Positions 2,274 to 20,879 of a stretch of DNA of 32,681 nt are shown in pieces (the stretch's first letter is position 1; the number at the start of each line of letters is the position of its first letter). Source of the stretch: a virus. Location of the stretch: positions 1 to 32,681 of IMG/VR virus record IMGVR_UViG_3300037541_000387. One strand, 5' to 3'. The translations under genes were made by a program, and so were the position numbers. The notes beneath the pieces were generated by a model that saw only the letters and a list, made by a program, of their open reading frames with translations, made no database searches and was not told where the DNA came from.

Positions 2274-2304
2274 ATATCTATATTATTACTTAATAGATAT
2301 AGTT

Positions 2305-2319
2305 TACCATCTGTTGCCT
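2305..2319 (-). repeat. Dispersed 15-bp repeat, copy a
   Basis: Minus-strand sequence AGGCAACAGATGGTA, identical in six places. Its AG is part of the TAG stop of the upstream coiled-coil gene. It sits 31 bases before the ATG of the 441-residue fibre. Confidence 0.9.
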
Positions 2320-2758
2320 ACCAGGTTGTCAAATCTACTCTTCTCCAAGTGTTAGTTGCTATACATATATACAAATGAGTGGTATTAGCTGCTATTTCAC
2401 CAGTTGTTCCACTTGATGTAGTAGTTGCGGGAACTGATACAAAAACTATTTGTTGAGCCTGTAAAGCTGTTAAAAAAGGAATATTTATAACATTTGTCCA
2501 ACTATCCCAAGTTATATCCATTTGAGCAGTTATATCTCCACTAGGATTATTTGTATATAATCTAATAAGATCTTTTCTTATTTCTATTCCAGAAGCATTA
2601 GGCCCTAAAACAGGTTCTCCTACTGATACATTATCACCAGCTACATTAGCTCCCGTATTTGTAGCAATAGTCCTTTGCTGTCTTTCTAAATCACTTACTC
2701 TTTGCTGTAAGTCTTTTATTGTTTGGATTAAATCTTGTTCTTGTATACTTGTGCTCAT
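2318..2758 (-). CDS. Small tail protein with N-terminal coiled coil
   Basis: A 146-residue protein. Residues 1-35 form a heptad pattern (LIQTIKDLQQRVSDLERQQR), then a Gly/Asn/Ser-rich linker, then a beta-type C-terminal domain containing AANTTHLYICIATNTWRRV. That last pattern is a short module often found near fibre attachment sites. It lies between the Tal-like protein and the large fibre, so a connector or trimerising role in the fibre is plausible. It ends at a TAG that is shared with repeat copy a. The specific family is not recognised. Confidence 0.55.
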   Translation of the reverse strand: MSTSIQEQDLIQTIKDLQQRVSDLERQQRTIATNTGANVAGDNVSVGEPVLGPNASGIEIRKDLIRLYTNNPSGDITAQMDITWDSWTNVINIPFLTALQAQQIVFVSVPATTTSSGTTGEIAANTTHLYICIATNTWRRVDLTTW

Positions 2759-2763
2759 ATATT

Positions 2764-3804
2764 TTATATTATAGGTGATATTGTTAACTTTATGCTTTCC
2801 TCTCCTGCATTTGAAACTCTAACATCTATGCCATATATTCTCATAGTGGTATTTATATCTACATAACCATATTTTATTCTAATTGGCACTATATCCCCTA
2901 CATCGTACTTACCAAAATCATTATAGGCATTATTAAGAGTTATATCATAAATTGGTTGTTCTGTCTTGTGGACTCTAATATATTCATCTGCCTTCTGGTC
3001 TAATGTAGCTTGCTCTGTTACCGATTTGTCTTGCTTTCTACCTTCTAATAATCCTACTGCATTAATTAAAACATTGTCAGTTTGTGTAGATGTAAGCCTT
3101 GCATCTCCTAACCCTTGTCCTTCTACCACTATGCTGTTAAACATATCTGATAAAGTCCTTTTTCTGCTCCAAGATTGTATATTATTTTTTAACCCCTCAC
3201 CATATTCTAATCTAAAATCTGTGATTGTAGATCCTCTCTTAGCATATACATTAAATACACCTAAAGTATTTATTTTTATACTAGGAGTTATAAGAAAGTC
3301 AAACCCATTGATTACCTCTGTTAATTGGATAATCTTTTCACCTATACTCTCATCAAAATACTGTCTATCTCTATTCTGAGTAGTCTCTATTGTCCCCTGT
3401 GTCAGCCCTAAATTACCACCTGTAAGCCCTTGTGTAGTGTTAATCAACCCCCAAGCTATAGTCCCTGCATCTGTAGCGGTATACGTGTTAGAAGTATACC
3501 GTTTTTCACTTAATATATGGAATATCTCTGTGCATTGTATAGTCACATCCCCATCATCACTAGCACCCTCTTGTATTTCCCATACTACCCCCGCCCATAT
3601 TAAAACATTTTCTCTATATATAAGCAGTCTTGTCACCCCAAGGTATATATCAAATCGTTGTAACCTTTCAACTGTGATAGGTACAGTAAAACTAGCCTTA
3701 CCTGCTCGGTTAAGCTGATAAGAATATTGTCTATTCATCACCTCTGGGAAGATTTCTTTCTGCCCAGTTCTATAATCCCATAAGATATATTTATATTCCG
3801 ACAT
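2764..3804 (-). CDS. Tail-associated (Tal-like) minor tail protein
   Basis: A 346-residue protein starting MSEYKYILWDYRTGQKEIFP and followed by beta-rich sequence. The pattern RLLIYRENVLIWAGVVWEIQ near residues 55-75 and IRIKYGYVDINTTMRIYGIDV near the C terminus fits the siphovirus ReqiPepy6 Gp37-like/tail-associated family. These proteins form the baseplate hub under Dit. The order tape measure, Dit, this protein, fibres is the standard siphovirus order. It overlaps the Dit gene by 14 bases. There is no attached lytic domain, unlike many Tal proteins. Confidence 0.65.
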   Translation of the reverse strand: MSEYKYILWDYRTGQKEIFPEVMNRQYSYQLNRAGKASFTVPITVERLQRFDIYLGVTRLLIYRENVLIWAGVVWEIQEGASDDGDVTIQCTEIFHILSEKRYTSNTYTATDAGTIAWGLINTTQGLTGGNLGLTQGTIETTQNRDRQYFDESIGEKIIQLTEVINGFDFLITPSIKINTLGVFNVYAKRGSTITDFRLEYGEGLKNNIQSWSRKRTLSDMFNSIVVEGQGLGDARLTSTQTDNVLINAVGLLEGRKQDKSVTEQATLDQKADEYIRVHKTEQPIYDITLNNAYNDFGKYDVGDIVPIRIKYGYVDINTTMRIYGIDVRVSNAGEESIKLTISPII

Positions 3805-4624
3805 AAGTGTTATACCAAGTTATTATTGCCTTAGTGTCTGAAGTAGCTCCACTATCTACATATAATGCAAGATTGTTATTTCCAGGAGCTAAAGTAATAA
3901 AGTTAGAGTCAGATGTTACAAATTGATAAATAGATACACCTTGCTGAGTGACTGTTTGTGTAGATCCAAACACTTCTATAATTTGCGCAGCGGTTAAAGT
4001 TAATCCGTCCACCTTAAAGATATCCCCAGTTGTTTGATTAAGAATAGTAAACCCTTCACCAGGGCCTATAATCTGTATATCTACTGTAGCATATCCATTC
4101 CCAGCATTGGCTAAAGTTCCTGACCCTGATACAGTTCCTAGTAAGACAGGCAATGTCCAAGGCAAAACTGCCCCTGTCGGCACTCCTGCTTGTTCAAGAG
4201 TAATAGAGTTTAAGTTTCCATTAGTAATCGTTCCAGAAGGCACATATATTGAGAAACCTATAGTCTGATATGCTCCTGTCCTCTCACCTTCATTGACACC
4301 AGTTCTAAGATATCCCTCAAAAGTATAAACTTGACTATCCTCAGTGGTATAAGCAAAACTTACTATCTGATTAGTGTTTGGATATATAGCTTTTAATAAA
4401 GCCTGTCTTTTGATATAAAAGTCATCTATATCTGTACCTCTGACCGCTATATCTATGCTTATCACCTTACTATGAGTGTAATTGGATACAAACCCTGCCT
4501 TATTGCTTTGAGGTATGTTATATGAGGCAAATTCAAGCCCACTAATTAGAAGCCCCTCTATATTGGCTAAATGATACTGACCTCCTATTGTAGCTGTAAT
4601 TCCATTAAATGCTAAAGTTTCCAT
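3791..4624 (-). CDS. Distal tail protein (Dit)
   Basis: A 277-residue protein directly after the tape measure gene, with only one base between them. The N-terminal part (about residues 1-125) has the beta-sandwich signature of Dit proteins: an early 'l.g......Y.I......', then VRGTDIDDFYIKRQALLKAIYP, then TFEGYLRTGV. A galectin-like beta domain with alternating Gly and Thr follows to the C terminus. Dit forms the hexameric ring that starts the tail tube and carries the baseplate. Position and pattern agree; no search was run. Confidence 0.65.
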   Translation of the reverse strand: METLAFNGITATIGGQYHLANIEGLLISGLEFASYNIPQSNKAGFVSNYTHSKVISIDIAVRGTDIDDFYIKRQALLKAIYPNTNQIVSFAYTTEDSQVYTFEGYLRTGVNEGERTGAYQTIGFSIYVPSGTITNGNLNSITLEQAGVPTGAVLPWTLPVLLGTVSGSGTLANAGNGYATVDIQIIGPGEGFTILNQTTGDIFKVDGLTLTAAQIIEVFGSTQTVTQQGVSIYQFVTSDSNFITLAPGNNNLALYVDSGATSDTKAIITWYNTYVGI

Positions 4625-4625
4625 A

Positions 4626-6248
4626 TTATGATAATCTTAATTTTTGTGCCATATAAGAAGCCCCTAATTCCCAGTCTACTCCACTCTTAATATTCATAGT
4701 CTCAATGGTAATACCACCACCCCCAGCTGTCATCTTTCGGCTTTCTTCATTAGTAAACACATCAGTCCCTTTAGGTAGATTGACAAGTTCTGGGCCTCTC
4801 TCACCTACTACAGCTAATCCTCCAGAGAAGTTTCTAACACCATCAGCAAATCCTGGTATTTTGCCTTTCAAAAAGTTTCCTAATCCAGGTATATTTCCTA
4901 ACCCTTTCATTTTGTCCATTATATCTGTTAATGCTTTGGGCATTCTAATATTTCCTAATGCTTGGATAAGTCCAAATACAGAGTCTTTTAATTGATTAAA
5001 TCTATCTTTTACCCATTGTATTTTATTTCCTAAAAATGTCCCCTCAGCAGTAAGTGAACTCCAGTTTCTCCATAGAGTGTACCCTATAGCAATTAAGGCG
5101 GCTATTGCAATAACAATCCAACCTATTGGACTTGTGATAAAAGCCAAGACAGCTGCAAATCCACCTGTTAAAGCTGTAGATATTGCAATCATTGTGTTAT
5201 ATGCCAACAAAGCTCCTCTAACAATACTTAAACTAATTACAAAAGATCCAAGTGTCACCATTACTACTTCAATAGCTATTTTATGTTGATTGTACCAACT
5301 AATTAAATTTTCAATAGTTGTTCTTAAATTGTTTATAGCCGTAACAATATTGTTATTTATATCCTGACCTACTTTTGCCCAATTTATTGCTCCAAGTCTT
5401 TCATTAAGATAATTAACACCTTTCTGTACAAGAGATAATAAGCTACCCTCTACAATAGTTCCATCTTCAGCAAGCCCTACTAACCCTGCAGCCATATTGC
5501 TTATATTGTCCATCAAAGTTGAGAATGTACCATTTAGAGTTTGTGCTCCTTTATCCATCCCCTTGTAGAATAATCCTCCTTCACTGGTGGCAGTTTTAAA
5601 AGCATCAGCTACCATTTCCGTGGTTATCTTTCCTTCTTCCATCTCTTTCTTAAGAGTTTTCATAGATTTCCCAGTCTTTTCAGATATAATCTGCAATGGG
5701 TTAAATCCCTGATTGATCATCTGAAGCAAATCCTGCCCCATTAATCTTCCTGTAGATTGTACCTGTGAAAAAGCTAATGTTAATCCTTGCAATTTTTCTT
5801 TATTTCCCAAAGATATATCTCCAAGCATTTTAAGATTTTTTTGACTATCTTCTACAGATATTCCAAAAGATAACATTGTTTGAGTAGCTTTAGCTAAATC
5901 TCTAGTTTCAAATGGAGTAGTAGCACCCATCTTTTTAAGATCCATAAATACTTTACGACCTTTTTCTGCACTCCCTGTAAGAGTTTCAAAACTAGCAGAT
6001 AATGATTGTAATTCTCCAGCTGTTTTAATTCCAAAAGTAGCAAATCCAACTCCAGCTACTCCTATTATTTTACTAGCATTAAGAGCCGCAGTCCCTATCC
6101 TAGCAAAAACTGCCCCTATTCTTTTTCCAGCATTATTAAGTCCACCAGTAAACCCTTCTACTTTATTTTGTGCCTGTTGCAAACCTTTATTAAGACCTGA
6201 GAAGTCTCCATCAAATTGTGCTACTACTGCTCCTGCTGATAATGCCAT
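4626..6248 (-). CDS. Tape measure protein
   Basis: A 540-residue protein. The N-terminal half has the conserved tape-measure domain: SLSASFETLTGSAEKGRKVF near residues 83-102, then TTPFETRDLAKATQTMLSFG, then GQDLLQMINQGFNPLQ. Hydrophobic segments follow at about residues 325-400, and a Gly-rich C-terminal part contains AVVGERGPELV. The length predicts a tail of about 80 nm at 1.5 angstrom per residue, which is on the short side. It follows the frameshifted chaperone pair as in other siphoviruses. The ATG lies 27 bases after repeat copy b. Confidence 0.85.
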   Translation of the reverse strand: MALSAGAVVAQFDGDFSGLNKGLQQAQNKVEGFTGGLNNAGKRIGAVFARIGTAALNASKIIGVAGVGFATFGIKTAGELQSLSASFETLTGSAEKGRKVFMDLKKMGATTPFETRDLAKATQTMLSFGISVEDSQKNLKMLGDISLGNKEKLQGLTLAFSQVQSTGRLMGQDLLQMINQGFNPLQIISEKTGKSMKTLKKEMEEGKITTEMVADAFKTATSEGGLFYKGMDKGAQTLNGTFSTLMDNISNMAAGLVGLAEDGTIVEGSLLSLVQKGVNYLNERLGAINWAKVGQDINNNIVTAINNLRTTIENLISWYNQHKIAIEVVMVTLGSFVISLSIVRGALLAYNTMIAISTALTGGFAAVLAFITSPIGWIVIAIAALIAIGYTLWRNWSSLTAEGTFLGNKIQWVKDRFNQLKDSVFGLIQALGNIRMPKALTDIMDKMKGLGNIPGLGNFLKGKIPGFADGVRNFSGGLAVVGERGPELVNLPKGTDVFTNEESRKMTAGGGGITIETMNIKSGVDWELGASYMAQKLRLS

Positions 6249-6275
6249 ATATATGTTAATTTATTACTTATATCT

Positions 6276-6290
6276 TACCATCTGTTGCCT
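6276..6290 (-). repeat. Dispersed 15-bp repeat, copy b
   Basis: AGGCAACAGATGGTA on the minus strand. Its first two bases are inside the TAG stop of the chaperone T frame. The copy lies 27 bases before the tape measure ATG. Confidence 0.9.
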
Positions 6291-6938
6291 ATCTACTCCC
6301 TAGCAGTCCTTTCAATCTATCCAAATTCTTTTCTATATCTTGCGGTTTTGCCTGTTTATTTTCTAGCTTCATCTTGATCCTCTTAAACTCATTAGGTAGC
6401 TTCCTAGCCTCACTTGCCTTTATGTGTGGATTAGTTGCAATAGCTAATAATATCTCATATTTAGAGATTTCATCTACCGCTTTAATCTTTTGTCTTTTCT
6501 GAGTTTGTTTATAAAAAAACAATGCCTCTGGGATAGTCAGTTGCATTGTCTCTTGTTTTGAATACGAATAGTTATGAGCCATAAACTCATAGGTAAAAGT
6601 CATCAAGCTAGGAGGATATTCCTCTACTTCTGGCTCTGAAACTTTTGGCTGATTTTGGTAAATAAACCCAGCAGTTCTTGCACTCCGTTAGCTTCTAAGA
6701 TTTCATCCACTAACTTAGTCAACTCTACAAGGTTCATCTCTTTGATTTGCTCTTCTGTGTAAGTTTTTCCACTTAGGATAACTAATACAGGGATAGCCTT
6801 TTCAAGATTACCTAGAATTGTAGCCATAGTTGACTGTGCTACATTCTCTGGATCTATTTGTGAAGATAACTCAAGAATTGGTTGTAATTCCTGAGTTAAA
6901 TCTAATACTTGTGATATTGTTAATGCTTTAATTGCCAT
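6289..6938 (-). CDS. Tail assembly chaperone GT, made by -1 frameshift
   Basis: The G frame (6938-6624) contains a canonical X-XXY-YYZ slippery heptamer, G GGT TTA, at 6669-6663. The -1 frame is open from 16 bases before it (after a TAA) through to TAG at 6289. Shifting there gives 92 residues of G followed by 124 residues of T, 216 in all. The T part continues with PPSLMTFTYEF and ends RLKGLLGSR. Siphoviruses make G and G-T in a fixed ratio to coat the tape measure. The T frame also has a TTG (6606), but no start context supports it as a separate gene. T-frame identity is inferred from position, size and the site. Confidence 0.8.
6624..6938 (-). CDS. Tail assembly chaperone G
   Basis: A 104-residue, mostly helical protein (MAIKALTISQVLDLTQELQP...) located between the tail tube and the tape measure genes. 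That is the standard position of the lambda G-type chaperone that binds the tape measure before tube polymerisation. It terminates at a TAG 13 codons after the slippery heptamer, so most ribosomes should release this short product. The start ATGGCA has no Shine-Dalgarno sequence. Confidence 0.8.
   Translation of the reverse strand: MAIKALTISQVLDLTQELQPILELSSQIDPENVAQSTMATILGNLEKAIPVLVILSGKTYTEEQIKEMNLVELTKLVDEILEANGVQELLGLFTKISQKFQSQK
6663..6669 (-). promoter_or_regulatory. -1 ribosomal frameshift site GGGTTTA
   Basis: In the G frame the bases read G GGT TTA. After a one-base slip both codons re-pair as GGG TTT, so the first two positions of each are preserved. This is a classical -1 heptamer. 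The codon start at 6668 is in the frame that begins at 6938. It is the only X-XXY-YYZ match I found in the overlap. Confidence 0.8.
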
Positions 6939-6947
6939 AATTTATGA

Positions 6948-7445
6948 TTAAGCTGGTGTTCCGATATATCCTAGTATACCATCTGTATTTGTAGCGTCAA
7001 TAAGAGCCATAAATTCTACTTCTATTTGACTTCTGTCATTTGACCAAGAAACTTCAATTGTCTCAGAAGATACAACTGCTTTGTGTAAAGTTATATCTGA
7101 ACTTAGATCACTTCCTTTAATAACAGGGTGGACAACTAATTTTTTAGCTAATGCTCTGGTTGAAGCTCCTACAGTCTCTCCAATCTTTAATTTCCCTCCA
7201 GCTGTATCTGCAGTTTGTATTATGTTTTGTAATACTGAGAAGCTATATTCTGACATAGGAACTGTAACTTTTAATTGTCGTCCTACCTCAATCATATCAA
7301 AAGGAGTTTCTACTCCATAAGTATCAGATGATTGCATAACTCTCTGAGTTATAACCTCTAATCTTACTTCTCCTTCGGTCTCACCTAAAGATGTTCCTCC
7401 CCAAGTGACTGTAGCGTATCCAACATTGATGTCTTGTAATGCCAT
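6948..7445 (-). CDS. Major tail tube protein
   Basis: A 165-residue protein that looks like a siphovirus tail tube subunit. It starts MALQDINVGYATVTWGGTSL, has alternating beta strands (GGTSLGETEGEVRLEV; RQLKVTVPMSEYSF) and ends with a polar tail. It lies between the tail terminator and chaperone G, the expected place. Tube proteins are made in large amounts. The gene has its own upstream copy of the 15-bp repeat, 29 bases before the ATG. Confidence 0.8.
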   Translation of the reverse strand: MALQDINVGYATVTWGGTSLGETEGEVRLEVITQRVMQSSDTYGVETPFDMIEVGRQLKVTVPMSEYSFSVLQNIIQTADTAGGKLKIGETVGASTRALAKKLVVHPVIKGSDLSSDITLHKAVVSSETIEVSWSNDRSQIEVEFMALIDATNTDGILGYIGTPA

Positions 7446-7474
7446 ATTCGTATAAATTAATTATATTCTTATAT

Positions 7475-7489
7475 TACCATCTGTTGCCT
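7475..7489 (-). repeat. Dispersed 15-bp repeat, copy c
   Basis: AGGCAACAGATGGTA on the minus strand. Its AG is part of the TAG stop of the tail terminator gene. The copy lies 29 bases before the tail tube ATG. Confidence 0.9.
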
Positions 7490-7865
7490 AATTTTTTATT
7501 TCAAGCACATAATTCCCTGTAAACACTGCTCGACCCGTTTCATCTTCCCCTATATCTGTAGGCTCTTGCAAGGCAAATACAGTATAAATTTCAGTCCCTC
7601 CCATTGTCTGAGCATATAATTGATGTAGGCTATCATATATCTCATAAGATAACTGTTGAGCAGTTTCATAATTAGTATTTCTAACTACAATTTGTATAGT
7701 AGGTTTTATTATGTCTAAATATGTAGTAGGCTCTACACCCCCTGACTGAAATATACCAACACAATTATCTACATTGGCAGGTAAAGTTCCTATAAATAAA
7801 TCTGTCCCTAATGTAAGACTTGTATTGCTGTTTATGTAATTGGCTATATCTGTAAGTAATGTCAT
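7488..7865 (-). CDS. Tail terminator protein
   Basis: A 125-residue protein. It resembles the 'minor capsid protein from bacteriophage' family that caps the tail tube: helical start (LLTDIANYINSNTSL), then GTLPANVDNCVGIFQSGGVE, then ETAQQLSYEIYDSLHQL. The sequence NVDNCVGIFQSGG followed by a helix with QQLSYEIYD is typical. It overlaps the preceding tail-completion gene by an ATGA, suggesting coupled translation. It ends at a TAG shared with repeat copy c. Confidence 0.7.
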   Translation of the reverse strand: MTLLTDIANYINSNTSLTLGTDLFIGTLPANVDNCVGIFQSGGVEPTTYLDIIKPTIQIVVRNTNYETAQQLSYEIYDSLHQLYAQTMGGTEIYTVFALQEPTDIGEDETGRAVFTGNYVLEIKN

Positions 7866-8242
7866 AGTTTTTTCTTTAATTCACTTGCTAAGACTTGTCG
7901 AGCCACTCTATTCCAAGTGCTGATATTCTCTTTTAATGGATTTTCTAAGTATTTACTTTTCCTACCATTGCTCCAATTTCTAACTACTCGGCTTCCATCT
8001 CTTCTCATACCCTCGTGCTGATACATTGCATACTTTGTATTATATCCTGTAATCCAATACTGCCCTTCTCGTCTAAAAAACCCTGATTGAGATAATCTCC
8101 CACTAGCAAAAGGCACAACAAACCTAGACAATCTAAGCAATTCACCAGCACATATTCTACCCCATTCATCCATAGGATTTATAGTCTGAAGCTTTTTTAA
8201 GTTTTTGCTTAATGTATTTTTTTTAATTTTAATACTAGACAT
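7862..8242 (-). CDS. Tail completion protein (gp10-like minor capsid protein)
   Basis: A 126-residue basic protein. It has a conserved-looking core from RFVVPFASGRLSQSG to GYNTKYAMYQHEGM, characteristic of HK97 gp10/minor capsid family proteins at the head-tail joint. In that family 'vP.dtG.Lr.S' and 'YA.yqHeG' are the usual landmarks. The gene overlaps the stopper gene by 8 bases and the tail terminator gene by 4. It is part of the four-gene connector set (8554 to 7488). Confidence 0.75.
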   Translation of the reverse strand: MSSIKIKKNTLSKNLKKLQTINPMDEWGRICAGELLRLSRFVVPFASGRLSQSGFFRREGQYWITGYNTKYAMYQHEGMRRDGSRVVRNWSNGRKSKYLENPLKENISTWNRVARQVLASELKKKL

Positions 8243-8552
8243 ACTTTTGGCATAATAGCTTCTTATGGTGAATATTCCCTAGCCTGTCTCTTAATATCTG
8301 GACTTCTATCACTCTAAATTCAATATCATCTGCTGTAATTGTATCATCTACTGCTACTGTTGTGTCTGGATATACCCATACCTCTACATCATAATCTAAG
8401 GGTTTTGCTTGTAATCCTCTATCTTGTCTATTAGCATATACTAACCTAGCTTTAATATAAGTAACTGTAGTAGTTGGTTTCCCATACTTATTATAAGCAG
8501 TTCTAGTGTTTAACTCTATATCTTGATTTAAGTATCTGGATAAATCAATCAT
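8235..8552 (-). CDS. Head-tail stopper (head closure) protein
   Basis: A 105-residue beta-rich protein beginning MIDLSRYLNQDIELNTRTAY. It has VEVWVYPDTTVAVDDTITADD in the middle, where small barrel-shaped closure proteins carry an internal loop. Position is between the connector and tail completion genes, the usual place for head closure. It is only one base downstream of the connector gene. The fold assignment is from position and strand pattern and could be wrong in detail. Confidence 0.6.
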   Translation of the reverse strand: MIDLSRYLNQDIELNTRTAYNKYGKPTTTVTYIKARLVYANRQDRGLQAKPLDYDVEVWVYPDTTVAVDDTITADDIEFRVIEVQILRDRLGNIHHKKLLCQKYV

Positions 8553-8553
8553 A

Positions 8554-9282
8554 CTAGTATGTCATATAGCCTGTTGTATCAATCAAGCCTTGTAATAACT
8601 GATTAGCAAGAGGGGAGAATGGCATACCTCCGACTAGTGCAAACCTTACACTATCTGTACCATAAGTCTCAGACAAATCTCCTATTTTGTATGAATTAAC
8701 TCCTGAGATTATATTTAATATATCCTCATCTTTATATCTACTCAAAAAATATGCCTGTTCTATCTGTGCATTCTTTATCTTTTTATCTATTGGAGATATA
8801 AATAACACTTGGCTAGTTGTATCTGGTTGTATATCCCACCCTGACACGGTTGCTGTGCCTGTAGAGCTTGTCCAATCTGTTATAGCTCTTACCTGCCCTC
8901 TACCTGTACCTTCTCTAATTACAGCTACTCCTCCATTTAAAACATCATCAGCTAAATACTGCTGTCCTCCTAACTGCAAAACTGACACTGTGGTGCTAGT
9001 TGCACTGCTTACATTGCCATAGTATAACCTGTCTATATTAACCCTTGGGAAGGCTAAATTCTGCTCTCTACGGTAGTCTTTATCTGTATGATATACTTTA
9101 TATCCTTTATACCTTAGTTGATCCATTTGCAAAGCGGCTTGTTTTAAGAAACCTTCTTTTTGTACTGTGGATAACCCAGCCCAATGTGAATAATTCTGCT
9201 TAACAGCTAAATAATCATTAGCTTCAGCAATGCTTACATAAGAGTCTTGGTCTGGATGTGATAATATTGTGTTTAATGCCAT
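8554..9282 (-). CDS. Head-tail connector (DnaT-like) with inserted beta domain
   Basis: A 242-residue protein. The N-terminal region (residues 9-80) carries the phage 'DnaT-like' connector pattern: DQDSYVSIAEANDYLAVKQN, then LKQAALQMDQLRYKGYK, then QNLAFPR. The C-terminal helical part (KNAQIEQAYFLSRYKDED) completes it. Between them, residues about 88-160 form a Val/Thr/Gly-rich beta segment (VSVLQLGGQQYL...VSGWDIQPDTT) not usual in the compact family members. The DnaT label reflects the family's name and does not imply a replication role here. ATGGCA lies 27 bases after repeat copy d. Confidence 0.65.
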   Translation of the reverse strand: MALNTILSHPDQDSYVSIAEANDYLAVKQNYSHWAGLSTVQKEGFLKQAALQMDQLRYKGYKVYHTDKDYRREQNLAFPRVNIDRLYYGNVSSATSTTVSVLQLGGQQYLADDVLNGGVAVIREGTGRGQVRAITDWTSSTGTATVSGWDIQPDTTSQVLFISPIDKKIKNAQIEQAYFLSRYKDEDILNIISGVNSYKIGDLSETYGTDSVRFALVGGMPFSPLANQLLQGLIDTTGYMTY

Positions 9283-9300
9283 AATCTTATAGGTTTATTA

Positions 9301-10281
9301 CTATAAGTTTACCATCTGTTGCCTTATCTCATTATATGATTTCCTTAAACTAAATTGACTTGCATACTCTGACCGCTTCTTATCTAATCCTCTTCTAAAT
9401 TGTCCTTTTTCTGCTTTCCAGTCGTTAAAAGCTTGTCTCATCTGTTTTCTTAATGACTTAATTCTAGGCTCATACCATAATCCTAAATCGTGCTGGTCAT
9501 AATCCTGCCTATAATATACAGCTTTACTCATATCACAGCCTATCTCATAGCAATATCTCTCATCAAAGTATTCAGCTATCCCGTGTGCATTAGGAATTAT
9601 AACTGGTGAGCCTACATTCATAGCTTCAAGTGGTGTCATTCCAAAACCTTCTCCTCTAGATGGGAATACAAAGCAATCGTGACTAGCTAATAAGTCTACT
9701 AACTGCTCTGGAGTGTAATCTTCTATAATAGACTCTATATTTAAGTTCATATAGGGATAATTATTGCCTCCAATCCCCTTAACTGTTAATTTTACCCATT
9801 CTTCTGGATGAAACTCCTGTGTAAAAGCATCTACTACAATATCAAAACCCTTTCTAAAGTCAAAAGCATTATAATGAAGGAACCTAAACACTCTATTCTC
9901 TGGTCTTGGTCTGTAAGTATATAAATCTGTATCTATTCCGTGTGGTATAACTATACTATCTATTCCAAACTGATTATAAAATATATCTCTTGCAAACTTG
10001 CTAGGTGTTATGAGTAAATCTAATTCTCTGATATAAGGCTCCCAATCTGGTGGACATTTTGTCGACTCAAACATAAAATAACCTATTTTCTTCTTACATC
10101 CATCTAACATTGGCACTTGTGGTGGTTGATAATATAAGAAACCTACATCTTGCCCTTTATTTTTGGTCTCTAAGACTATTTCTTTATCTTCTTGGCTAAT
10201 TCTATACCAAGTGTTAGCTACATTGCCAAAACCGCCTATTTTAGTCTTAAGCGGTGGGGTAGCATAGTATATTGATTTCAT
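9301..10281 (-). CDS. GT4-type glycosyltransferase inside the head gene cluster
   Basis: A 326-residue GT-B family 4 glycosyltransferase. It shows ITPSKFARDIFYNQFG, then VIPHGIDTDLY (the conserved PHGID turn), and the sugar-nucleotide binding E-x7-E pair at E211 and E219 (EGFGMTPLE) followed by VGSPVIIPN. These bind the nucleotide-sugar diphosphate. The gene lies between the coat protein and connector genes and is translationally coupled (ATGA) to a 55-residue gene. An internal promoter at 10474-10502 serves both. Its last codons (AGG CAA CAG ATG GTA) coincide with repeat copy d. A role in glycosylating the virion is inferred from location. Confidence 0.85.
   Translation of the reverse strand: MKSIYYATPPLKTKIGGFGNVANTWYRISQEDKEIVLETKNKGQDVGFLYYQPPQVPMLDGCKKKIGYFMFESTKCPPDWEPYIRELDLLITPSKFARDIFYNQFGIDSIVIPHGIDTDLYTYRPRPENRVFRFLHYNAFDFRKGFDIVVDAFTQEFHPEEWVKLTVKGIGGNNYPYMNLNIESIIEDYTPEQLVDLLASHDCFVFPSRGEGFGMTPLEAMNVGSPVIIPNAHGIAEYFDERYCYEIGCDMSKAVYYRQDYDQHDLGLWYEPRIKSLRKQMRQAFNDWKAEKGQFRRGLDKKRSEYASQFSLRKSYNEIRQQMVNL
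9310..9324 (-). repeat. Dispersed 15-bp repeat, copy d
   Basis: AGGCAACAGATGGTA on the minus strand. Unlike most copies it is inside a coding end, read as RQQMV before the TAG of the glycosyltransferase. It is 27 bases before the connector ATG. Confidence 0.9.
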
Positions 10282-10445
10282 ATTAACTTATTTCTTAATT
10301 CCTTTAGCTTAAGAGCATAATCTAAAGCTTCTTTCCCTCTAGCTCCAAATAATAATAAAGTATAATGTCTAATTTCTTTATTTATTTTAGCATTATGCTT
10401 ATCTACCCAATTATATAAACTATCTACTTGTTTAGTGATTTTCAT
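10278..10445 (-). CDS. Small helical protein, 55 residues
   Basis: An open frame of 55 codons starting MKITKQVDSLYNWVDK and ending KLKELRNKLI. It is charged and probably helical; no family is recognised. Its TGA overlaps the ATG of the glycosyltransferase (ATGA). It has its own promoter (10474-10502) and an untranslated leader identical to that of the 114-residue gene at 19667. It is therefore probably a real gene and the first of the internal transcript. Confidence 0.75.
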   Translation of the reverse strand: MKITKQVDSLYNWVDKHNAKINKEIRHYTLLLFGARGKEALDYALKLKELRNKLI

Positions 10446-10466
10446 ACTTGATATGATTAATTATTA
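10441..10466 (-). repeat. Conserved 5' leader and start, copy 1
   Basis: A 26-base stretch running from the probable transcript start into the start codon. It is identical to 19663-19688. The core next to the start is TCATATCAAGTATG. No Shine-Dalgarno sequence is present, so the leader may itself be the initiation signal. Confidence 0.8.
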
Positions 10467-10473
10467 TATTTTA

Positions 10474-10502
10474 ATTATAAACTAAAAAGAGCTATATTTC
10501 AA
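10474..10502 (-). promoter_or_regulatory. Leftward sigma70-type promoter
   Basis: Minus strand TTGAAA (10502-10497), a 17-base spacer, then TATAAT (10479-10474). The -35 box and spacer overlap the coat-protein terminator. Start of RNA is expected near 10467, giving a leader of about 22 bases for the 55-residue gene. Confidence 0.75.
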
Positions 10503-10508
10503 GCTCTT
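10484..10508 (-). terminator. Terminator after the coat protein gene
   Basis: Minus strand AAGAGCT (10508-10502), an 8-base loop, AGCTCTT (10493-10487) and TTT. It lies 26 bases after the coat protein stop. The T-run is short, so it may be partial and allow readthrough. Confidence 0.65.
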
Positions 10509-10533
10509 AATAGTAGGTGAGTAGGGTTATAGA

Positions 10534-11439
10534 TTAAACTGTTCTATAAGCTACTGCTAATCCTTGTCTCATTATAGCAACACCATAAAGGATTTCAGCT
10601 CTTGCAAACATTCCTCCTACTTTGGCATCATATCCCATAGTCAATCTTAGAGATAATCCTGTTGCTGGATCATTGTATACTCCTTGTTTTACTCCAAGTC
10701 CATCTCCATCAACTGGAAGTGGTCGTACAGCAATAGCAAAAGCATCTCTGTGGAAAGCCATATTTTGTTTTCGTACTGGGCTTCCTCCTGATTGGATTAA
10801 TTGAGTTTCAAATAATCCTAATCCAGCTACTTTAGGAATTATAGCATCTTGTACTGGCATTGGGCTTCCAAATTCTAGAGCTTTGCTAATATTAGTGTCT
10901 TTTAACAAACTAGCATATACATCTTCATTTAATGTAAAAATGAAAGGTCCAGAAAGAGGAGCTTTGTTTTTAACTAAAGTTTTTCTAAGATCTACTAAAT
11001 CCTGATAAGCATTAGCAGTAGGAGTAACTGAATTTGTTAAAGAAGTTCCAAGGGAAGCAACAGAAATATCTACAGCTTCTAATACTGAACTAATAGCTTC
11101 ATTGATATATCCTTGTAATACATCTGGTCGTGATTGTGCTCGTCCAACATCTTCAATCAAAACGGTCTTGTGTCTGTGTTGGTTAAGAGTAACTGTTACA
11201 TCACTGTCAGCAGGAGCAGTATTTGCATATTCAGATCCAGCTACTTTAGTATCAGCAGATCCTAAATCTCCTAAGAAACCAACTTTTACAGCTTCTCCAA
11301 ATTGTCTTACATCATTTGAAAAATCAGTGTTTACAAATCGAGAAATTCCTCTGTTTGCTCTTAAGGTCTTCATAGCGGTTGCAGCAGCAACTGTAGGAAT
11401 GAATGAGTCAAGTAATGACTTTGTTATTTCATTGGCCAT
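10534..11439 (-). CDS. Major capsid protein (P22-type coat, HK97 fold)
   Basis: A 301-residue protein following a scaffold-like gene. It has the P22 gene 5-like coat pattern: MANEITKSLLDSFIPTVAA at the N terminus, a basic GEAVKVGFLG strand, TVTLNQHRHKTVLIEDVGRA, then a spine helix with VLEAVDISVASLG. Near the C terminus come FHRDAFAIAVRPLP and a beta-rich end LRLTMGYDAKVGG. Such proteins form the icosahedral shell. The terminator just after it and the strong scaffold pairing support high expression. There is no protease gene, so maturation is probably without proteolysis. Confidence 0.85.
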   Translation of the reverse strand: MANEITKSLLDSFIPTVAAATAMKTLRANRGISRFVNTDFSNDVRQFGEAVKVGFLGDLGSADTKVAGSEYANTAPADSDVTVTLNQHRHKTVLIEDVGRAQSRPDVLQGYINEAISSVLEAVDISVASLGTSLTNSVTPTANAYQDLVDLRKTLVKNKAPLSGPFIFTLNEDVYASLLKDTNISKALEFGSPMPVQDAIIPKVAGLGLFETQLIQSGGSPVRKQNMAFHRDAFAIAVRPLPVDGDGLGVKQGVYNDPATGLSLRLTMGYDAKVGGMFARAEILYGVAIMRQGLAVAYRTV

Positions 11440-11453
11440 ATTGGTAATTTAAT

Positions 11454-12047
11454 TTATTGTCCTATTAATATTCGTCCTTCTTTTTTAGCTTCGGTTATAG
11501 CTTGTATATTCTTAGCTACAAAATCTGAGTCCTTCAATTGTGATTCTTTGAATATAACACCAGTTGAGCTTGAGGAGTTCCCTCCATTAGCGTTCCCAGC
11601 ATTGCTAGTTGTTTCAGCTTTGAAAAGATAAGGCATTTCGGTCTTGATACGAGTCAATTCTGATGTAAGTCCTGTGATGTTAACCTCACCTGTCTCATCA
11701 GTAACATTATCAGTTTCGATAAACTTCATAACTGCTTTTAAGTCGTGAGGATTATACTTTACTGCTTCCTGTATTAGAGATTTTTCAAGATTGCTTTGTC
11801 TATACCTATTTTGTACATCCTTTAGCTCCTGTTCTCGGGTCTCTGCAATTTGTTTCCAGTTACCTTGTTCCTCGGCGATTTTGGTTTCGAATTCTGCTAA
11901 TTTAGCTTTATATTCGTTTCTTTCTTTATTAACCTGGTCAAACCTTGATTTTGGAATTTGGATTTCTTGTTTTGTCTCTTCTACTGGTGTTTCAGTAGTT
12001 GTATCTTGAGTGGTTTCGCTCTCCAGCGTTGTTGTATCCTCTGCCAT
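11454..12047 (-). CDS. Scaffold protein
   Basis: A 197-residue acidic protein with a Thr/Glu-rich start (TTLESETTQDTTTETPVEE). A long charged coiled coil follows (about residues 45-90: KERNEYKAKLAEFETKIAEE, then KDVQNRYRQSNLEKS). A Ser/Asn/Gly linker and a short C-terminal helix with FVAKNIQAITEAKKE complete it. This is the phage GP20-type scaffold layout, placed directly before the coat gene. I chose ATGGCA at 12047; a TTG at 12056 in frame is a weaker option. Repeat copy e lies 56 bases upstream, with an imperfect hairpin between. Confidence 0.8.
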   Translation of the reverse strand: MAEDTTTLESETTQDTTTETPVEETKQEIQIPKSRFDQVNKERNEYKAKLAEFETKIAEEQGNWKQIAETREQELKDVQNRYRQSNLEKSLIQEAVKYNPHDLKAVMKFIETDNVTDETGEVNITGLTSELTRIKTEMPYLFKAETTSNAGNANGGNSSSSTGVIFKESQLKDSDFVAKNIQAITEAKKEGRILIGQ

Positions 12048-12103
12048 ATAATGCAAATTATGTTGATAACATCCGTATCGTGGATGATCCGTTATTCCTA
12101 ATC

Positions 12104-12118
12104 TACCATCTGTTGCCT
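12104..12118 (-). repeat. Dispersed 15-bp repeat, copy e
   Basis: AGGCAACAGATGGTA on the minus strand. Its AG is part of the TAG stop of the minor head gene. The distance to the scaffold start is larger than for the other copies (56 bases to ATG). Confidence 0.9.
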
Positions 12119-13205
12119 ATTCTTGTATATAATCGGATAGTATGTCTAGGCTTTCTTTTAATCTCTCGTCTTTAGTCCTTTTTTTGACCTCTTGGATAGT
12201 TTTTATATCTTTGTTCTTGATAGCTTCGTTGATTATATTATAATCTTTAATTCCTATCTTGGTCGTAAACTGCTCATAGGCTTTTAAAATAGACTTAGGA
12301 CTGTTAGTGGTTAGGTTCTGAGACTTTACATTTTCTTTGGGCTGATAACTCTGGGTTTCGGTATCCCATACCTTGCTTACCTCAGCTAATCCCTCTGTAA
12401 ATGGTGAGATTGAGTGTCTACAGTTAGCATGTTGCAATCCATTGGCTTTAGCTTCGGCTAAGGTAGTATATCCTCTAGTTCTACCTGTTAGGGATAGCAC
12501 CTCATTCTCATATGGTCGGCATAAAGCACATTCCCCAAAGTGGTCTGACACTTGTACTAGATCATAACCTTCTTGAATTATAGTATTGCTAGTCCCCTGC
12601 CATTGAGCGTCTGTGAGTATACTTCTAGCTAAAGTTGAGGCGTAAGTGTCAATTCCCTGTCTTCTACCTGATACAGACACAACTGCTGTAGCTTGAGATT
12701 GCTTTAACACACTAGCCACTCCTTTAGCTATAGCATTCTGGTCAGCTCCTGTGACTAATCCTTTCCCTATCTCAGCTTTTATCTTTTCCTGCTCAGCAAA
12801 TGTTAAGGCTCTAGTTCCAGTGTCTTGTATCCCTTGAGCTATCTTGCTGGTATATGTATAGCTTTGAGATATAAGGGCATCTAATGCTTCCTGATGTAGA
12901 CTTACAAATGATTGGTTAAACTCATATACCTGCCCACCTTTGATTGAAGCATTGACTGCATTGTTCATTCCTTCATAGTATAGAGAGGGGATGGTTATGT
13001 TAGCCCAAGCCTCTAGCTGTAGATTATACTTATTGGCAATATTTTTAATAGCTCTAGATTTAGCCGACAATGTACCTTTGTCTAATCTATCTGCATATGT
13101 AGCAAGGTCAAGATAAGCCTCTTTCACAATAGCTTCGGCTAGTTTAACTTGTATATCTGATTGGACTATCCCTTCGGGTCTAATCCTCTTCTTCGTCTCC
13201 GCCAT
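12117..13205 (-). CDS. Minor head protein (phage minor capsid 2 / MuF-like)
   Basis: A 362-residue protein after the portal. The C-terminal half has the metal-site-like pattern of this family: CALCRPYENEVLSLTG, then AEAKANGLQHANCRHSISPF. The C..C, H and NCRH residues are the family landmarks. N-terminal helices (LAEAIVKEAYLDLATYAD) bind head or portal. It overlaps the portal gene by 26 bases. In SPP1-like phages the equivalent protein (gp7) is carried in the head and affects DNA release. It ends in a TAG shared with repeat copy e. Confidence 0.75.
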   Translation of the reverse strand: MAETKKRIRPEGIVQSDIQVKLAEAIVKEAYLDLATYADRLDKGTLSAKSRAIKNIANKYNLQLEAWANITIPSLYYEGMNNAVNASIKGGQVYEFNQSFVSLHQEALDALISQSYTYTSKIAQGIQDTGTRALTFAEQEKIKAEIGKGLVTGADQNAIAKGVASVLKQSQATAVVSVSGRRQGIDTYASTLARSILTDAQWQGTSNTIIQEGYDLVQVSDHFGECALCRPYENEVLSLTGRTRGYTTLAEAKANGLQHANCRHSISPFTEGLAEVSKVWDTETQSYQPKENVKSQNLTTNSPKSILKAYEQFTTKIGIKDYNIINEAIKNKDIKTIQEVKKRTKDERLKESLDILSDYIQE

Positions 13206-14601
13206 TTATTCCTCTGTTAATTATTGAGAACGGGTTGGCTTTATTCTTAGCGTCTAATTCCTCTTGTATTCTAGTTAGTTTGTCTTGAGCTTCATTGCTG
13301 GTAATTCCATCTATATTTGAGATTGCGTCTTCCTTGGTTGTTAGATCATAGTCTAATTTGGCCTGTTCAGCTTGTAGGATTTCTAATTCATCCATAATAA
13401 TACCATCTTGCCAGTAGATTGTAGGTACTTCAGTCTCAGCTGGTTTTAATCCATCACTAGTCAATTGGTTATTCCTTGCAAATTCAATAGCAGACTCTAT
13501 AAGTGCTTTAAGTCCATTATCCCAATACATCTGTTTGCGGTGTTTCAAAGATAAAGTTCTTAATAACTTATACTTCAAAGCTCTACCTGACTCTGCTACT
13601 CCATATTTAGTAAGTCCAAACAAAGTAGGGGATGATTGTGCGGCAATAAATAACTGTTCTAATAACACATCTATCTGTGCAAATGATGATTCTAGTTTAC
13701 TATCCCAAACAATATATTCTGGCTTGTCTGCCTCACCTGTCATTGGGTGACTTGGTAGTTCTATCATTCCTAGTTGCTGTCTTGAAACATTCCCGTTGCT
13801 ATCTAATACACCTTTAGGCACTGCTAAGATTGGGTCTCCGTGTTTGTCTAAGATATGCTCGTTTCTAGATAATCTGTTGTTGATAGCAAAGAATAAGTCC
13901 ATTAAGTCCTCATAGTCGCTAATCCCCCAAAACTTACCACTCATTCCCCAGTTCTTTATGTGATGGATAAGGCTAAACCCCTGTTCTAAGTTAGTCTTTA
14001 CTATAGGTTCTATCCCTAGCATATCCATAGAATTATATTCTCCACCTATAACACCATCTTTAAAATCATACACCCGTGTTTCTATCTCTCCTACTCTATA
14101 AGTTTCTACTACAATGTATTGCTTCTCATTAATCATTTGGATATAAGCAAGTACATGCTCTTTTACTGGAGCTTTGACATTGTTGTCATTATATACTGGG
14201 AAATATACATCTGGTTTGACTGTATCTATCTTAACTTGTCCATCTACAGCTAATATTCTAAGTACTGAGTCTCCTTTATAGCTTGTAACTAAAGCCTCCT
14301 CATATAAAGTAGTCCACATACTATTCTCATACCATAACTTGTCTACAAAGTTTTGGTTAGTCTCATTTTCTAACACAATCTTTGGTTGTTCCTCAAATAA
14401 AAGGTCAGCTGAGATAGTGCTAATAATTCTAGGATAGGGAAGTACCACATATCTTACAAGAGACATATCCCCTGCAAATTGTTCAGCATAATGCTCTAAT
14501 CTTTTGCTAAAGGCTATTCTATGGTTCCCTTCGAATAACTTCTCGTAGGTATCATATTTGGCTAATCTGTCTATGTCTTTTTGAGGAGGATATTGCTTCA
14601 T
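13180..14601 (-). CDS. Portal protein (SPP1 gp6-like)
   Basis: A 473-residue protein of the SPP1 gp6 type. It has an N-terminal RYVVLPYPRIISTISADLLF, central RVYDFKDGVIGGEYNSMDML, LMDLFFAINNRLSRNEHIL and GLTKYGVAESGRALKYKLLR (the stem and crown helices), and a C-terminal acidic tail (GGDEEED). The dodecameric ring feeds DNA into the head and connects to the tail. It follows TerL, and ATG is at 14601, overlapping the TerL end region by none. The repeat copy f lies 35 bases before the start, inside terL. Confidence 0.85.
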   Translation of the reverse strand: MKQYPPQKDIDRLAKYDTYEKLFEGNHRIAFSKRLEHYAEQFAGDMSLVRYVVLPYPRIISTISADLLFEEQPKIVLENETNQNFVDKLWYENSMWTTLYEEALVTSYKGDSVLRILAVDGQVKIDTVKPDVYFPVYNDNNVKAPVKEHVLAYIQMINEKQYIVVETYRVGEIETRVYDFKDGVIGGEYNSMDMLGIEPIVKTNLEQGFSLIHHIKNWGMSGKFWGISDYEDLMDLFFAINNRLSRNEHILDKHGDPILAVPKGVLDSNGNVSRQQLGMIELPSHPMTGEADKPEYIVWDSKLESSFAQIDVLLEQLFIAAQSSPTLFGLTKYGVAESGRALKYKLLRTLSLKHRKQMYWDNGLKALIESAIEFARNNQLTSDGLKPAETEVPTIYWQDGIIMDELEILQAEQAKLDYDLTTKEDAISNIDGITSNEAQDKLTRIQEELDAKNKANPFSIINRGINGGDEEED

Positions 14602-14604
14602 ATA

Positions 14605-15777
14605 TTAAAATCCAAATGGTTTATTATTATATATCTTACCATCTGTTGCCTTTTCAAGTTCCATATAGTCTATACAATACCGCATAGCATCCATAATATG
14701 GTCTTTGACTTTGATAGGCATATCCATAGTCTGGCCATCTTTATTCTTTTGCCACCTGTAGAATTGTAACTCTTTGATCATATTGATTGAGGTATTAGTT
14801 ATATGTATCTTTTTAACTTTAACTGCATTTATACCTCTAATAACTGAGCCTTTATTCTTATAGGCTGGTTTAATATTGTATCCTGCCATATAAATGTCAT
14901 TTATCTTACCAGGGTCTTCACTATCTCCTACTATAACCGCGTCTCTAGGTATGTTTAGCTCTTGTAGCTTTCTTATAATCTCATCTGAATTAAGTCCTGA
15001 TTGATATAATAGCTCTTGCACATATAACACATTATCTAATTCTCTTATTTCTACAATAGCAGTTTGATTGTTAAATCCCCAGTCAGCTCCATAATACCGT
15101 CTATCATAGCTTTCTGGTAAAGTCTCACATCTTTGCCAATGGGTATAGATTAAATCTTCTGATACTCCCCTTTCTCCTAATCCAAACACTCTCCAAAAGT
15201 TTGGATCTAACACTTTATACCTTTCTATCTCATCTATCACCTCCTGAGGTAAAAATGGGTTATCCCTGTAGGTTGATTTTATAACTACACAGTCATCTCT
15301 GGTCATAACATCATCATAAATCCAGTGGAATGAGTCTGAGGGGTTGAAGTCTAATGTAATCTCCCCTGTTGTTCTCATAGCTAACTGCCTCCAGTCTTCT
15401 AGGGATAATTCATTAGCCTCATTAAGCCACAAATAGTCTCTCTTAGCTCCTCTTTTCTTCTGAGGGTTATCCATACCAAGGAACTCTACCAAGTTGCCAT
15501 TAAGGTTATATGTCTTTAGTGTTTTGTTATGGTTCTTGCTATCGTATAAGTTCCAGTTAATAAGTATTTCAAAGAAGTCTCTAGCTACAGTTAAATCTAA
15601 AGCAGGGGATGTCTTTCTTACAATAGATAAAATCTTACCTTTCTCTTTTAGAAGTTTAAGGATATATTTCTGAGCTATAGAATAAGTCTTAGAACTTCTA
15701 GAGCTTCCTTGATTGACTATAATTCTTTTATTAGCCTCCCAGTTCTTTTGGAATACTACTGTCGCTTGTATCTTCAT
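14605..15777 (-). CDS. terL: Terminase large subunit
   Basis: A 390-residue packaging ATPase-nuclease of the PBSX/SPP1 sort. The Walker A motif is GSSRSSKT (residues 24-31). The Walker B region YLWLNE (115-120) carries the catalytic Glu at 120. The C-terminal RNase H-like nuclease has acidic residues in YYGADWGF, VIVGDSEDPGKI and DHIMDAMRYCIDY. The gene overlaps the NUMOD1-like gene by ATGA. Repeat copy f is read here as KATDG near the C terminus. TerL cuts concatemers and pumps DNA through the portal. Confidence 0.9.
   Translation of the reverse strand: MKIQATVVFQKNWEANKRIIVNQGSSRSSKTYSIAQKYILKLLKEKGKILSIVRKTSPALDLTVARDFFEILINWNLYDSKNHNKTLKTYNLNGNLVEFLGMDNPQKKRGAKRDYLWLNEANELSLEDWRQLAMRTTGEITLDFNPSDSFHWIYDDVMTRDDCVVIKSTYRDNPFLPQEVIDEIERYKVLDPNFWRVFGLGERGVSEDLIYTHWQRCETLPESYDRRYYGADWGFNNQTAIVEIRELDNVLYVQELLYQSGLNSDEIIRKLQELNIPRDAVIVGDSEDPGKINDIYMAGYNIKPAYKNKGSVIRGINAVKVKKIHITNTSINMIKELQFYRWQKNKDGQTMDMPIKVKDHIMDAMRYCIDYMELEKATDGKIYNNKPFGF
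14637..14651 (-). repeat. Dispersed 15-bp repeat, copy f
   Basis: AGGCAACAGATGGTA on the minus strand, inside terL (AAG GCA ACA GAT GGT AAG) and 35 bases before the portal ATG. Confidence 0.9.
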
Positions 15778-16073
15778 TGTCTTGTATTACAGATAGGGCA
15801 GAGCTGAACTTCTAAGCTTAATATTATCTGGCACTTCCTACACTGTTTCTTTTTACCACTTGAGAGTAGAAAGTCTTTGTGAATAGATAGGGTAGAGTCA
15901 GTCGCTTCTTTAAAAACCCAAACTCCTTTAAGTGTTCTGTTTTTATCTTTCCATCTATTGATGGTAGATCTATTAACCGATACAACTCTAGCAAAATCAG
16001 TTTGAGACCCAAATTCAATAATCTCTCCTGTTTCAATATTAATAACACTAATCGGTTTCTTGTTGTGCCTCAT
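15774..16073 (-). CDS. NUMOD1-like DNA-binding protein with zinc ribbon
   Basis: A 99-residue protein. Residues 7-55 (PISVINIETGEIIEFGSQTD, then RSTINRWKDK, then GVWVFKE) match the NUMOD1 repeat that usually recognises DNA in homing endonucleases. Residues 78-95 carry C78-x2-C81 and C92-x2-C95, a zinc ribbon. No nuclease domain is present. It sits between terS and terL, overlapping both. It could be a reduced homing element or a packaging cofactor. The domain call is by pattern. Confidence 0.7.
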   Translation of the reverse strand: MRHNKKPISVINIETGEIIEFGSQTDFARVVSVNRSTINRWKDKNRTLKGVWVFKEATDSTLSIHKDFLLSSGKKKQCRKCQIILSLEVQLCPICNTRQ

Positions 16074-16534: not shown

Positions 16535-16563
16535 ACTATATCAATTAGTATATTGTTTGTCAA
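16535..16563 (-). promoter_or_regulatory. Leftward promoter of the packaging/structural operon
   Basis: Minus strand TTGACA (16563-16558), a 17-base spacer and TATAGT (16540-16535). Consensus -35 and near-consensus -10. The start would be near 16528, just upstream of the tiny basic peptide and terS. Confidence 0.8.
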
Positions 16564-19695: not shown

Positions 19696-19724
19696 ATTAT
19701 AACATATTTTTGACAAAATTACAA
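19696..19724 (-). promoter_or_regulatory. Leftward promoter of the glycosyltransferase unit
   Basis: Minus strand TTGTAA (19724-19719), a 17-base spacer, then TATAAT (19701-19696) preceded by TGT, an extended -10. RNA should start near 19689. It interleaves with the rightward promoter at 19710-19738. Confidence 0.7.
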
Positions 19725-19738
19725 TAATATGATATTAT
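19710..19738 (+). promoter_or_regulatory. Rightward sigma70-type promoter
   Basis: TTGACA (19710-19715), a 17-base spacer and TATTAT (19733-19738). Expected RNA start near 19745. The -35 lies within the spacer of the leftward promoter. Confidence 0.8.
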
Positions 19739-20089: not shown

Positions 20090-20483
20090 GGTTTGTGGCT
20101 TTTTAATTCTTTACAGTTCTACGAAGGCGTAGACAAGCTACTTACAAACACCTATCTAAGTGAGGTTTACTCAAAGTCTGCTCACTAAAATAAAACAAAC
20201 TTAATACTCTTGCCGATATGAGTGGTTGGGGTGGAGTGTAAGAACTTCACTTAAATTCTCCCCAGCTATAGCATATAGAGAGTAGATGTACAATTCTGAT
20301 AAGATATATCTTGGAGAAATTGGAACATATTTTGAATAGTAAAATAAAGATCATACCTTTAGGAAGTAACATCTCCACTATAATATAAGATATGGGATAT
20401 ATCAGGAATAATTAGATTAGGTAATCACATATAGGATAACTTCTAATAGTAGGAGAATAAGATTGTTTTGCTTAATTTTAGAA
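20090..20483 (+). other. Gene-free stretch with predicted RNA folds
   Basis: No convincing gene. The first half can form stems: GTTTGT 20091-20096 with ACAAAC 20144-20149 enclosing TCTACG/CGTAGA (20118-20133); AGTGAG 20159-20164 with CTCACT 20181-20186; and TGGGG 20227-20231 with CCCCA 20260-20264 enclosing AGTG/CACT. The rest (20270-20480) is AT-rich and I see nothing in it. The folded half may be the 3' part of the 64-residue transcript or an independent RNA. Confidence 0.4.
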
Positions 20484-20512
20484 TTGACAATTATAGATTT
20501 TGGAATTATACT
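20484..20512 (+). promoter_or_regulatory. Promoter of small-RNA unit 1
   Basis: TTGACA (20484-20489), 17 bases, TATACT (20507-20512). RNA start is expected near 20519, exactly where a 6-bp hairpin begins. Confidence 0.85.
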
Positions 20513-20518
20513 TTTATT

Positions 20519-20600
20519 GTAACTTTTTGTTAGTTAGTTACACCCTAGACAATATAATATGCTGGGTATTCCCGTAGTGGACTATCTGGTTTATTTTTTT
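20519..20600 (+). ncRNA. Small RNA 1 (about 80 bases)
   Basis: Starts at the 5' stem GTAACT (20519-20524)/AGTTAC (20536-20541). ACCC (20542-20545) can pair with GGGT (20564-20567). A weak GTAG/CTAT hairpin follows, then TTTATTTTTTT (20590-20600). There is no open frame. The last stem is weak, so the 3' end is uncertain. Its T-run leads into the promoter of unit 2. Confidence 0.55.
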
Positions 20601-20609
20601 ATAGATATG

Positions 20610-20618
20610 TGTTATACT
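20610..20618 (+). promoter_or_regulatory. Extended -10 promoter of small-RNA unit 2
   Basis: TG-T-TATACT at 20610-20618. The -35 position (20590-20595, TTTATT) is weak and lies in the T-run of unit 1. RNA start is expected near 20625, exactly at the first stem of unit 2. Confidence 0.65.
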
Positions 20619-20624
20619 TTTATT

Positions 20625-20740
20625 ACCACAGAATTAGTGAGCTGTGGTTACTTGATATTGATGCTGGTCATCACTCCCCTCTTGGTCTGATGACATTTAA
20701 TTCAATGAACATTTACTCCCTTTGGGGAGTTTTTGTTTTG
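20625..20740 (+). ncRNA. Small RNA 2 (about 115 bases)
   Basis: 5' stem ACCACAG (20625-20631)/CTGTGGT (20642-20648) at the very start. A second stem is GTCATCA (20667-20673)/TGATGAC (20688-20694) with a 14-base pyrimidine-rich loop. A terminator follows. The loop's ACTCCCC (20673-20679) can also pair with GGGGAGT (20724-20730) of the terminator, an alternative fold that would remove it. I saw no similarity to a known RNA family. Confidence 0.65.
20715..20740 (+). terminator. Terminator of small RNA 2
   Basis: ACTCCC (20715-20720), TTTG loop, GGGAGT (20725-20730), then TTTTGTTTT. The T-run contains the -35 box of the next promoter. Confidence 0.85.
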
Positions 20741-20766
20741 ACAATTTATAATATATTTGATATACT
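20738..20766 (+). promoter_or_regulatory. Promoter of small-RNA unit 3
   Basis: TTGACA (20738-20743), 17 bases, TATACT (20761-20766), starting inside the T-run of the preceding terminator. RNA start near 20773. Confidence 0.85.
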
Positions 20767-20772
20767 AACTAT

Positions 20773-20842: not shown

Positions 20843-20849
20843 TAAAACA

Positions 20850-20870: not shown

Positions 20871-20879
20871 CATAAATAT

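Follow-up and report, generated by a model that had tools for sequence, protein, structure and literature searches.

The repeated element and the virion genes

Why should one 15-base sequence stand, letter for letter, before six structural genes of an uncultivated phage? The window analysed here is a virus contig of 32,681 bases with 33% GC. According to its gene order in comparison with that of a 39-kb relative, the two ends appear to be joined, which suggests that the window is close to complete. The minus strand carries exactly six copies of AGGCAACAGATGGTA, at 2305, 6276, 7475, 9310, 12104 and 14637, and the plus strand carries none. The copies precede the virion genes for portal, scaffold, connector, tail tube, tape measure and fibre, and neither the early (plus-strand) units nor the lysis units contain a copy. 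A sequence-only reading of this DNA had placed five of the copies 27–35 bases before an ATG. The distances from motif end to ATG are 31, 27, 29, 27, 56 and 35 (in order from 2305 to 14637), in agreement with that statement. As that reading also had it, the motif overlaps the TAG stop of the upstream gene in four of the six copies, and the other two lie in coding sequence, in the last part of terL (KATDG) and of the glycosyltransferase gene (RQQMV).

When up to three mismatches were allowed, eight matches to AGGCAACAGATGGTA were found against 1.05 expected, and none of 100 shuffles reached eight. In 200 order-3 Markov genomes, no 15-mer had more than two copies. These shuffles and simulated genomes exclude chance as the origin of the six-fold repeat. 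Many further viral contigs have a single exact match to the 15-mer; these were taken as chance, since a rough estimate gives about 100 expected for so large a collection. Searched against Rfam, the window gave a tRNA as its sole match, and no known RNA element corresponds to the repeat. No DNA match to the window was found among known phages. A collection of 50,697 phage records contains no protein match to the connector or to one tail protein. GTDB genomes were scanned twice for the host, and nothing was found.

Three roles had been offered for the repeat: a late-gene promoter element, an RNA-processing or translation signal, and a recombination linker at module edges. The comparisons below strongly support the promoter and disfavour the other two. 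The six copies and the units that they would serve are as follows, each with the box AGGCAACA, TGG and a -10 hexamer.

14633–14651, minus strand: predicted late promoter, copy 1, portal and minor head unit; -10 TAAGAT; predicted start near 14625
12100–12118, minus strand: predicted late promoter, copy 2, scaffold and major head protein unit; -10 TAGATT; predicted start 12093
9306–9324, minus strand: predicted late promoter, copy 3, connector unit (within the glycosyltransferase gene, at its 3' end); -10 TAAACT; predicted start 9299
7471–7489, minus strand: predicted late promoter, copy 4, tail tube unit; -10 TAATAT; predicted start 7464
6272–6290, minus strand: predicted late promoter, copy 5, tape measure unit; -10 TAAGAT; predicted start 6265
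2301–2319, minus strand: predicted late promoter, copy 6, fibre unit; -10 TAAACT; predicted start 2294

Anatomy of the element

The 15 bases are identical as described, but this boundary is too short: at the 3' end the element runs four bases on (NNNT) in every copy. The "TATA-rich" bases noted after the copies are present, and they are really the rest of the -10 hexamer plus the start region. The full element, which is also the deeper consensus, is AGGCAACAnnTGnTAnnnT, and the exact 15-base identity is limited to the clade of the window. When the final T of the -10 hexamer is set as -7, the box occupies -25 to -18 and abuts an extended -10, TGnTAnnnT, at -15 to -7. The box AGGCAACA has eight bases, is asymmetric without evident dyad and is centred near -21.5, within the promoter spacer.

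Related sites were examined in about forty contigs of the phage group, retrieved by scans with TerL and the major head protein. The element was found at the corresponding junctions in these contigs, and the near-complete relatives carry six elements each. Four subtypes are seen: AGGCAACAGATGGTA in the window clade, AGGCAACA(AG/AA)TGnTA, AGGCAACATATGnTA and AAGTCTCAT(T/A)TGnTA. The first three are jointly called type A, and the last is called type B.

The T at -7, which was not preset by the search pattern, is found without exception, both in three genomes (18 sites) and in the 49 distinct sites of type A. A T at -1 followed by an A at +1 is found in five of the six window copies and in 14 of the 18 sites; in the distinct A-type sites, T(-1) and A(+1) each reach 89%. 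A TGn directly 5' of a TAnnnT hexamer is the mark of extended -10 promoters read by the primary sigma factor. A consensus -35 is dispensable in such promoters, and in type A as in type B sites no consensus is seen at -36 to -31. The distance from box to ATG varies from 27 to 56 bases, whereas the distances from box to the -10 T and to the start A are fixed.

The concerted box switch

Type B phages form a sister clade, with TerL 65–67% identical to that of the window. In this clade GTCTCAT replaces GGCAACA at all six sites, and the -10 and the start are kept. When the window was compared with the B genome G007 at the six junctions, box positions 2, 4, 5 and 6 differed at 6/6, and positions 3, 7, 8, 11, 12, 14, 15, 19 and 26 were identical at 6/6. 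The unchanged positions include box 3, 7 and 8, the TG, the TA, the -7 T and the +1 column. Most flanking positions match in only part of the six junctions. Probably, the reader of the box sequence changed along with the six promoters.

In the B contigs L022 and L163, the scaffold promoter lacks the G of the TG, yet its -10 is a perfect TATAAT, which reads as a promoter compensating for the loss. The terL copy has its box in coding sequence, and where the box differs between the clades so does the C-terminus of TerL, which suggests that selection at the DNA level dominates there. Two relatives (L045 and G015) have extra copies of the element, each heading an extra cassette of virion-type genes. 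These copies fit late promoters that travel with late genes.

The distant TerL relatives G012 and G017 do not share the late module of the window group. G013 (L212/L213, 35,624 bases) has the early module in common with the window group (ERF, SSB-like, both HTH proteins described below, lysozyme 87%), and its head genes are unrelated. It has a different late module, before whose genes no equivalent element was found. The early promoters of G013 have a repeated core, TTGACTTTTGTATA..TGnTATnnT, in common, which is probably a promoter plus operator. The left end of another assembly, G002 (L168/L181 and L021/L146, 36,401 bases), has the B-type set of portal promoter, TerL and X (the protein described below), and the right end has the A-type set; the assembly is either chimeric or a recombinant.

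Two promoter classes

The early promoters of these phages consist of TTGACA, 17 bases and TGnTATTAT. Canonical promoters of the window are listed here.

20880–20908, plus strand: canonical early promoter, TTGACA-17-(TGT)TATTAT
20738–20766, plus strand: canonical early promoter, TTGACA-17-(TGA)TATACT
24564–24592, plus strand: canonical early promoter, TTGACA-17-(TGA)TATTAT
19710–19738, plus strand: canonical early promoter in a divergent intergenic region, TTGACA-17-(TGA)TATTAT
16535–16563, minus strand: canonical promoter before TerS-X-TerL, TTGACA-17-(TGA)TATAGT

A promoter like that before TerS-X-TerL is present in two A-type relatives, and in G007 it lies further upstream. Compared with the early class, the late class retains the extended -10 and has the box in place of the -35. 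The two classes would be explained by a single host sigma factor together with a step that depends on the phage.

Some further features of the window were observed. About 900 bases between early genes (20090–20992) hold no recognised gene and at least two canonical promoters. A terminator-like hairpin (10487–10508, minus strand) lies immediately 3' of the major head gene, and a promoter-like site, TTGAAA-17-TATAAT, is located after this hairpin and before the glycosyltransferase gene. ATA is the commonest Ile codon, and Shine-Dalgarno sequences are nearly absent though the early promoters are of canonical sigma-70 type.

Leader hairpins

One 5' leader contains a covarying stem.

12070–12086, minus strand: hairpin with loop ACGATA(C/A) and covarying stem, in the leader of the scaffold-major head unit

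The stem variants by clade are CATCC/GGATG, GTCC/GGAC and GCTC/GAGC, with three pairs changed on both sides. Pairing holds in 93.8% of cells for this hairpin, and slid controls reach no more than 46%. The hairpin may serve to stabilise the mRNA or in autoregulation. In the fibre (2273–2300) and connector (9282–9308) units, both on the minus strand, the 5' leader can fold an A/T-rich hairpin just before the ATG, and the fibre leader stem shows a compensated C/G exchange between clades.

The role of the element

Very probably, the six copies are late promoters for the host RNA polymerase, in which a box read by an early or middle phage protein takes the place of the -35. The extended -10, the fixed spacing to the T/A step, the restriction to virion genes, the lack of a -35 and the concerted switch of the box all argue for the late-gene promoter that had been proposed. 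By analogy with T4 middle promoters, activator-dependent late promoters would be the best reading. The host primary sigma factor would read TGnTAnnnT at -15 to -7, and transcription would begin about 7 bases past the -10, usually at an A after a T. The missing -35 would be replaced by the AGGCAACA box (-25 to -18), bound by the early or middle phage protein. The virion genes would then switch on together as six overlapping transcription units. We infer from the sequence that the promoters are actually used and that the box has an activator protein as its reader and, more weakly, that this activator is the protein X encoded at 15774–16073. One difficulty is that, with the box directly against the extended -10, an ordinary activator would have scarcely any space next to sigma.

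An element that acts in RNA, either as a processing site or as a translation enhancer standing in for the missing Shine-Dalgarno, would agree with its position near gene starts and with the near lack of Shine-Dalgarno sequences in this phage (2/50 genes against a background of 9.5%). However, many other genes without a Shine-Dalgarno are also without the element, and it is the distance to the ATG that varies (27–56) and the distances to the -10 T and the start A that are constant. The box changes at all sites between sister clades. Because four of its bases change together, pairing with a conserved host rRNA is unlikely. If the copies are promoters, the element also lies upstream of the transcript start. 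A role in RNA is therefore very unlikely. We consider it even less likely that the copies are recombination linkers at module edges, maintained by exchange. They do separate modules, and the extra cassettes of L045 and G015 bring their own copy. However, the flanks differ, so that the copies share little homology beyond 19 bp; a linker requires neither a conserved TGnTAnnnT nor a start A; and a joint substitution at four positions with the rest conserved would be unexpected.

The least probable of these roles is that the whole element is read by a phage single-subunit RNA polymerase or by a sigma-54-type factor. The contiguous conserved block is similar in style to such promoters, and clade A has GG at -24/-23. 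On the other hand, no unassigned gene of polymerase or sigma-factor size was found in the near-complete 32.7-kb contig, and TGnTAnnnT is found in the canonical early promoters too. Of the sigma-54 features (GG at -24, GC at -12), the GG is present in clade A and lacking in clade B, and -12/-11 is TA in both clades.

Candidate readers of the box

Three DNA-binding proteins were found in both A and B genomes.

15774–16073, minus strand: protein X, 99 aa, HTH (NUMOD1-like) and zinc ribbon, between TerS and TerL; candidate box reader, on correlative grounds only
22772–22954, plus strand: Mor / sigma-region-4-like HTH protein, 60 aa; ranked lower as reader
24095–24469, plus strand: HTH protein with C-terminal predicted membrane helix, 124 aa; ranked lower as reader

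The N-terminal HTH of X gives weak, sub-threshold NUMOD1-like matches, and the zinc ribbon has the form CxxC...CPxC. X would be made with TerS and TerL from the canonical promoter. It is located immediately upstream of TerL wherever both are covered, except in L028, where the two are about 1.3 kb apart. In L022 and L023 a methyltransferase gene precedes TerL and X was not seen; X is also absent from G013. The available contigs of the TATATG subtype (L152, L159) did not show X. An alignment scan with X gave matches only within this phage group, and the search against the 50,697 phage records gave one weak partial match. The recognition helix is V[NH]R[SA][ST][IV][NST][RK]W in A and VDRM[TP][VI]TRQ in B. 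On this correlation X is the leading candidate, and we place it somewhat below an even chance, because TerL tracks the box equally well and, with only two independent box types, the link between X and box rests on one switch. The fuller proposal is tentative and somewhat doubtful: X would represent a new activator family that binds the spacer (-25 to -18) against the extended -10 and sets all virion transcription, its specificity having changed once with six promoters following.

There is nearly an even chance that the reader is instead a different phage protein or a host factor, which would leave the promoter reading unaffected. For the 60-aa protein, matches were obtained to phrog_532, "late transcriptional activator" (9e-7), and to the Mor family of Pfam (5e-6). 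Its model (pLDDT 76) shows similarity, with weak E-values, to sigma domain 4 and to further HTH proteins. The model of the 124-aa protein shows an XRE-type HTH resemblance, also with weak E-values. Both are early-region genes in those A and B genomes that have them. However, the 60-aa protein has a near-identical recognition helix in A and B (TRQRIYQII / SRQRIYQII) despite the different box. The 124-aa protein differs between the clades but also within A. G013 has both proteins, yet it has another late module and no element. Each of these two was set aside as reader on these grounds.

Comparison with known systems

In T4 middle promoters, the host primary sigma reads a -10 that is often extended, and the box of a phage activator replaces the -35 (PMC6755090; PMC7403470). 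The window promoters would be alike in both respects. The MotA box of T4 is centred at -30 (PMC6755090), whereas the box here is centred at about -21.5, nearly touching the extended -10, and serves structural, not middle, genes. Pfam scans of ten early and middle proteins, and PHROGs scans of a subset of these, gave no match to MotA or AsiA. In Thermus phage P23-45, middle and late promoters have an extended -10 with no need of a -35, and the host polymerase is shifted from -10/-35 promoters (PMC7403470). The extended -10 class without a -35 is shared, but here there is an additional invariant box, switched between clades, and no gp39 relative was noticed. As in the late promoters of Mu (C / Mor family), several virion-gene promoters would depend on one small early or middle activator. 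Mu C has its sites upstream of the -35 or overlapping it (PMC4461284), whereas the box here is in the spacer and without evident dyad, and the Mor-like 60-aa protein does not track it. The late promoters would resemble the T4, P23-45 and Mu systems in working, and by these comparisons belong to none of them.

Meaning for the phage group

For phages with structural genes unmatched in 50,697 phage records, comparison alone yields predicted starts, promoter classes and a candidate activator. The two clades form a natural experiment in which the DNA specificity of a regulator changed and six promoters were obliged to follow. If X is the reader, the A/B pair would give orthogonal activator-promoter sets. 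If X indeed represents a new family, this would be a natural rewiring of regulator and promoters with both states preserved.
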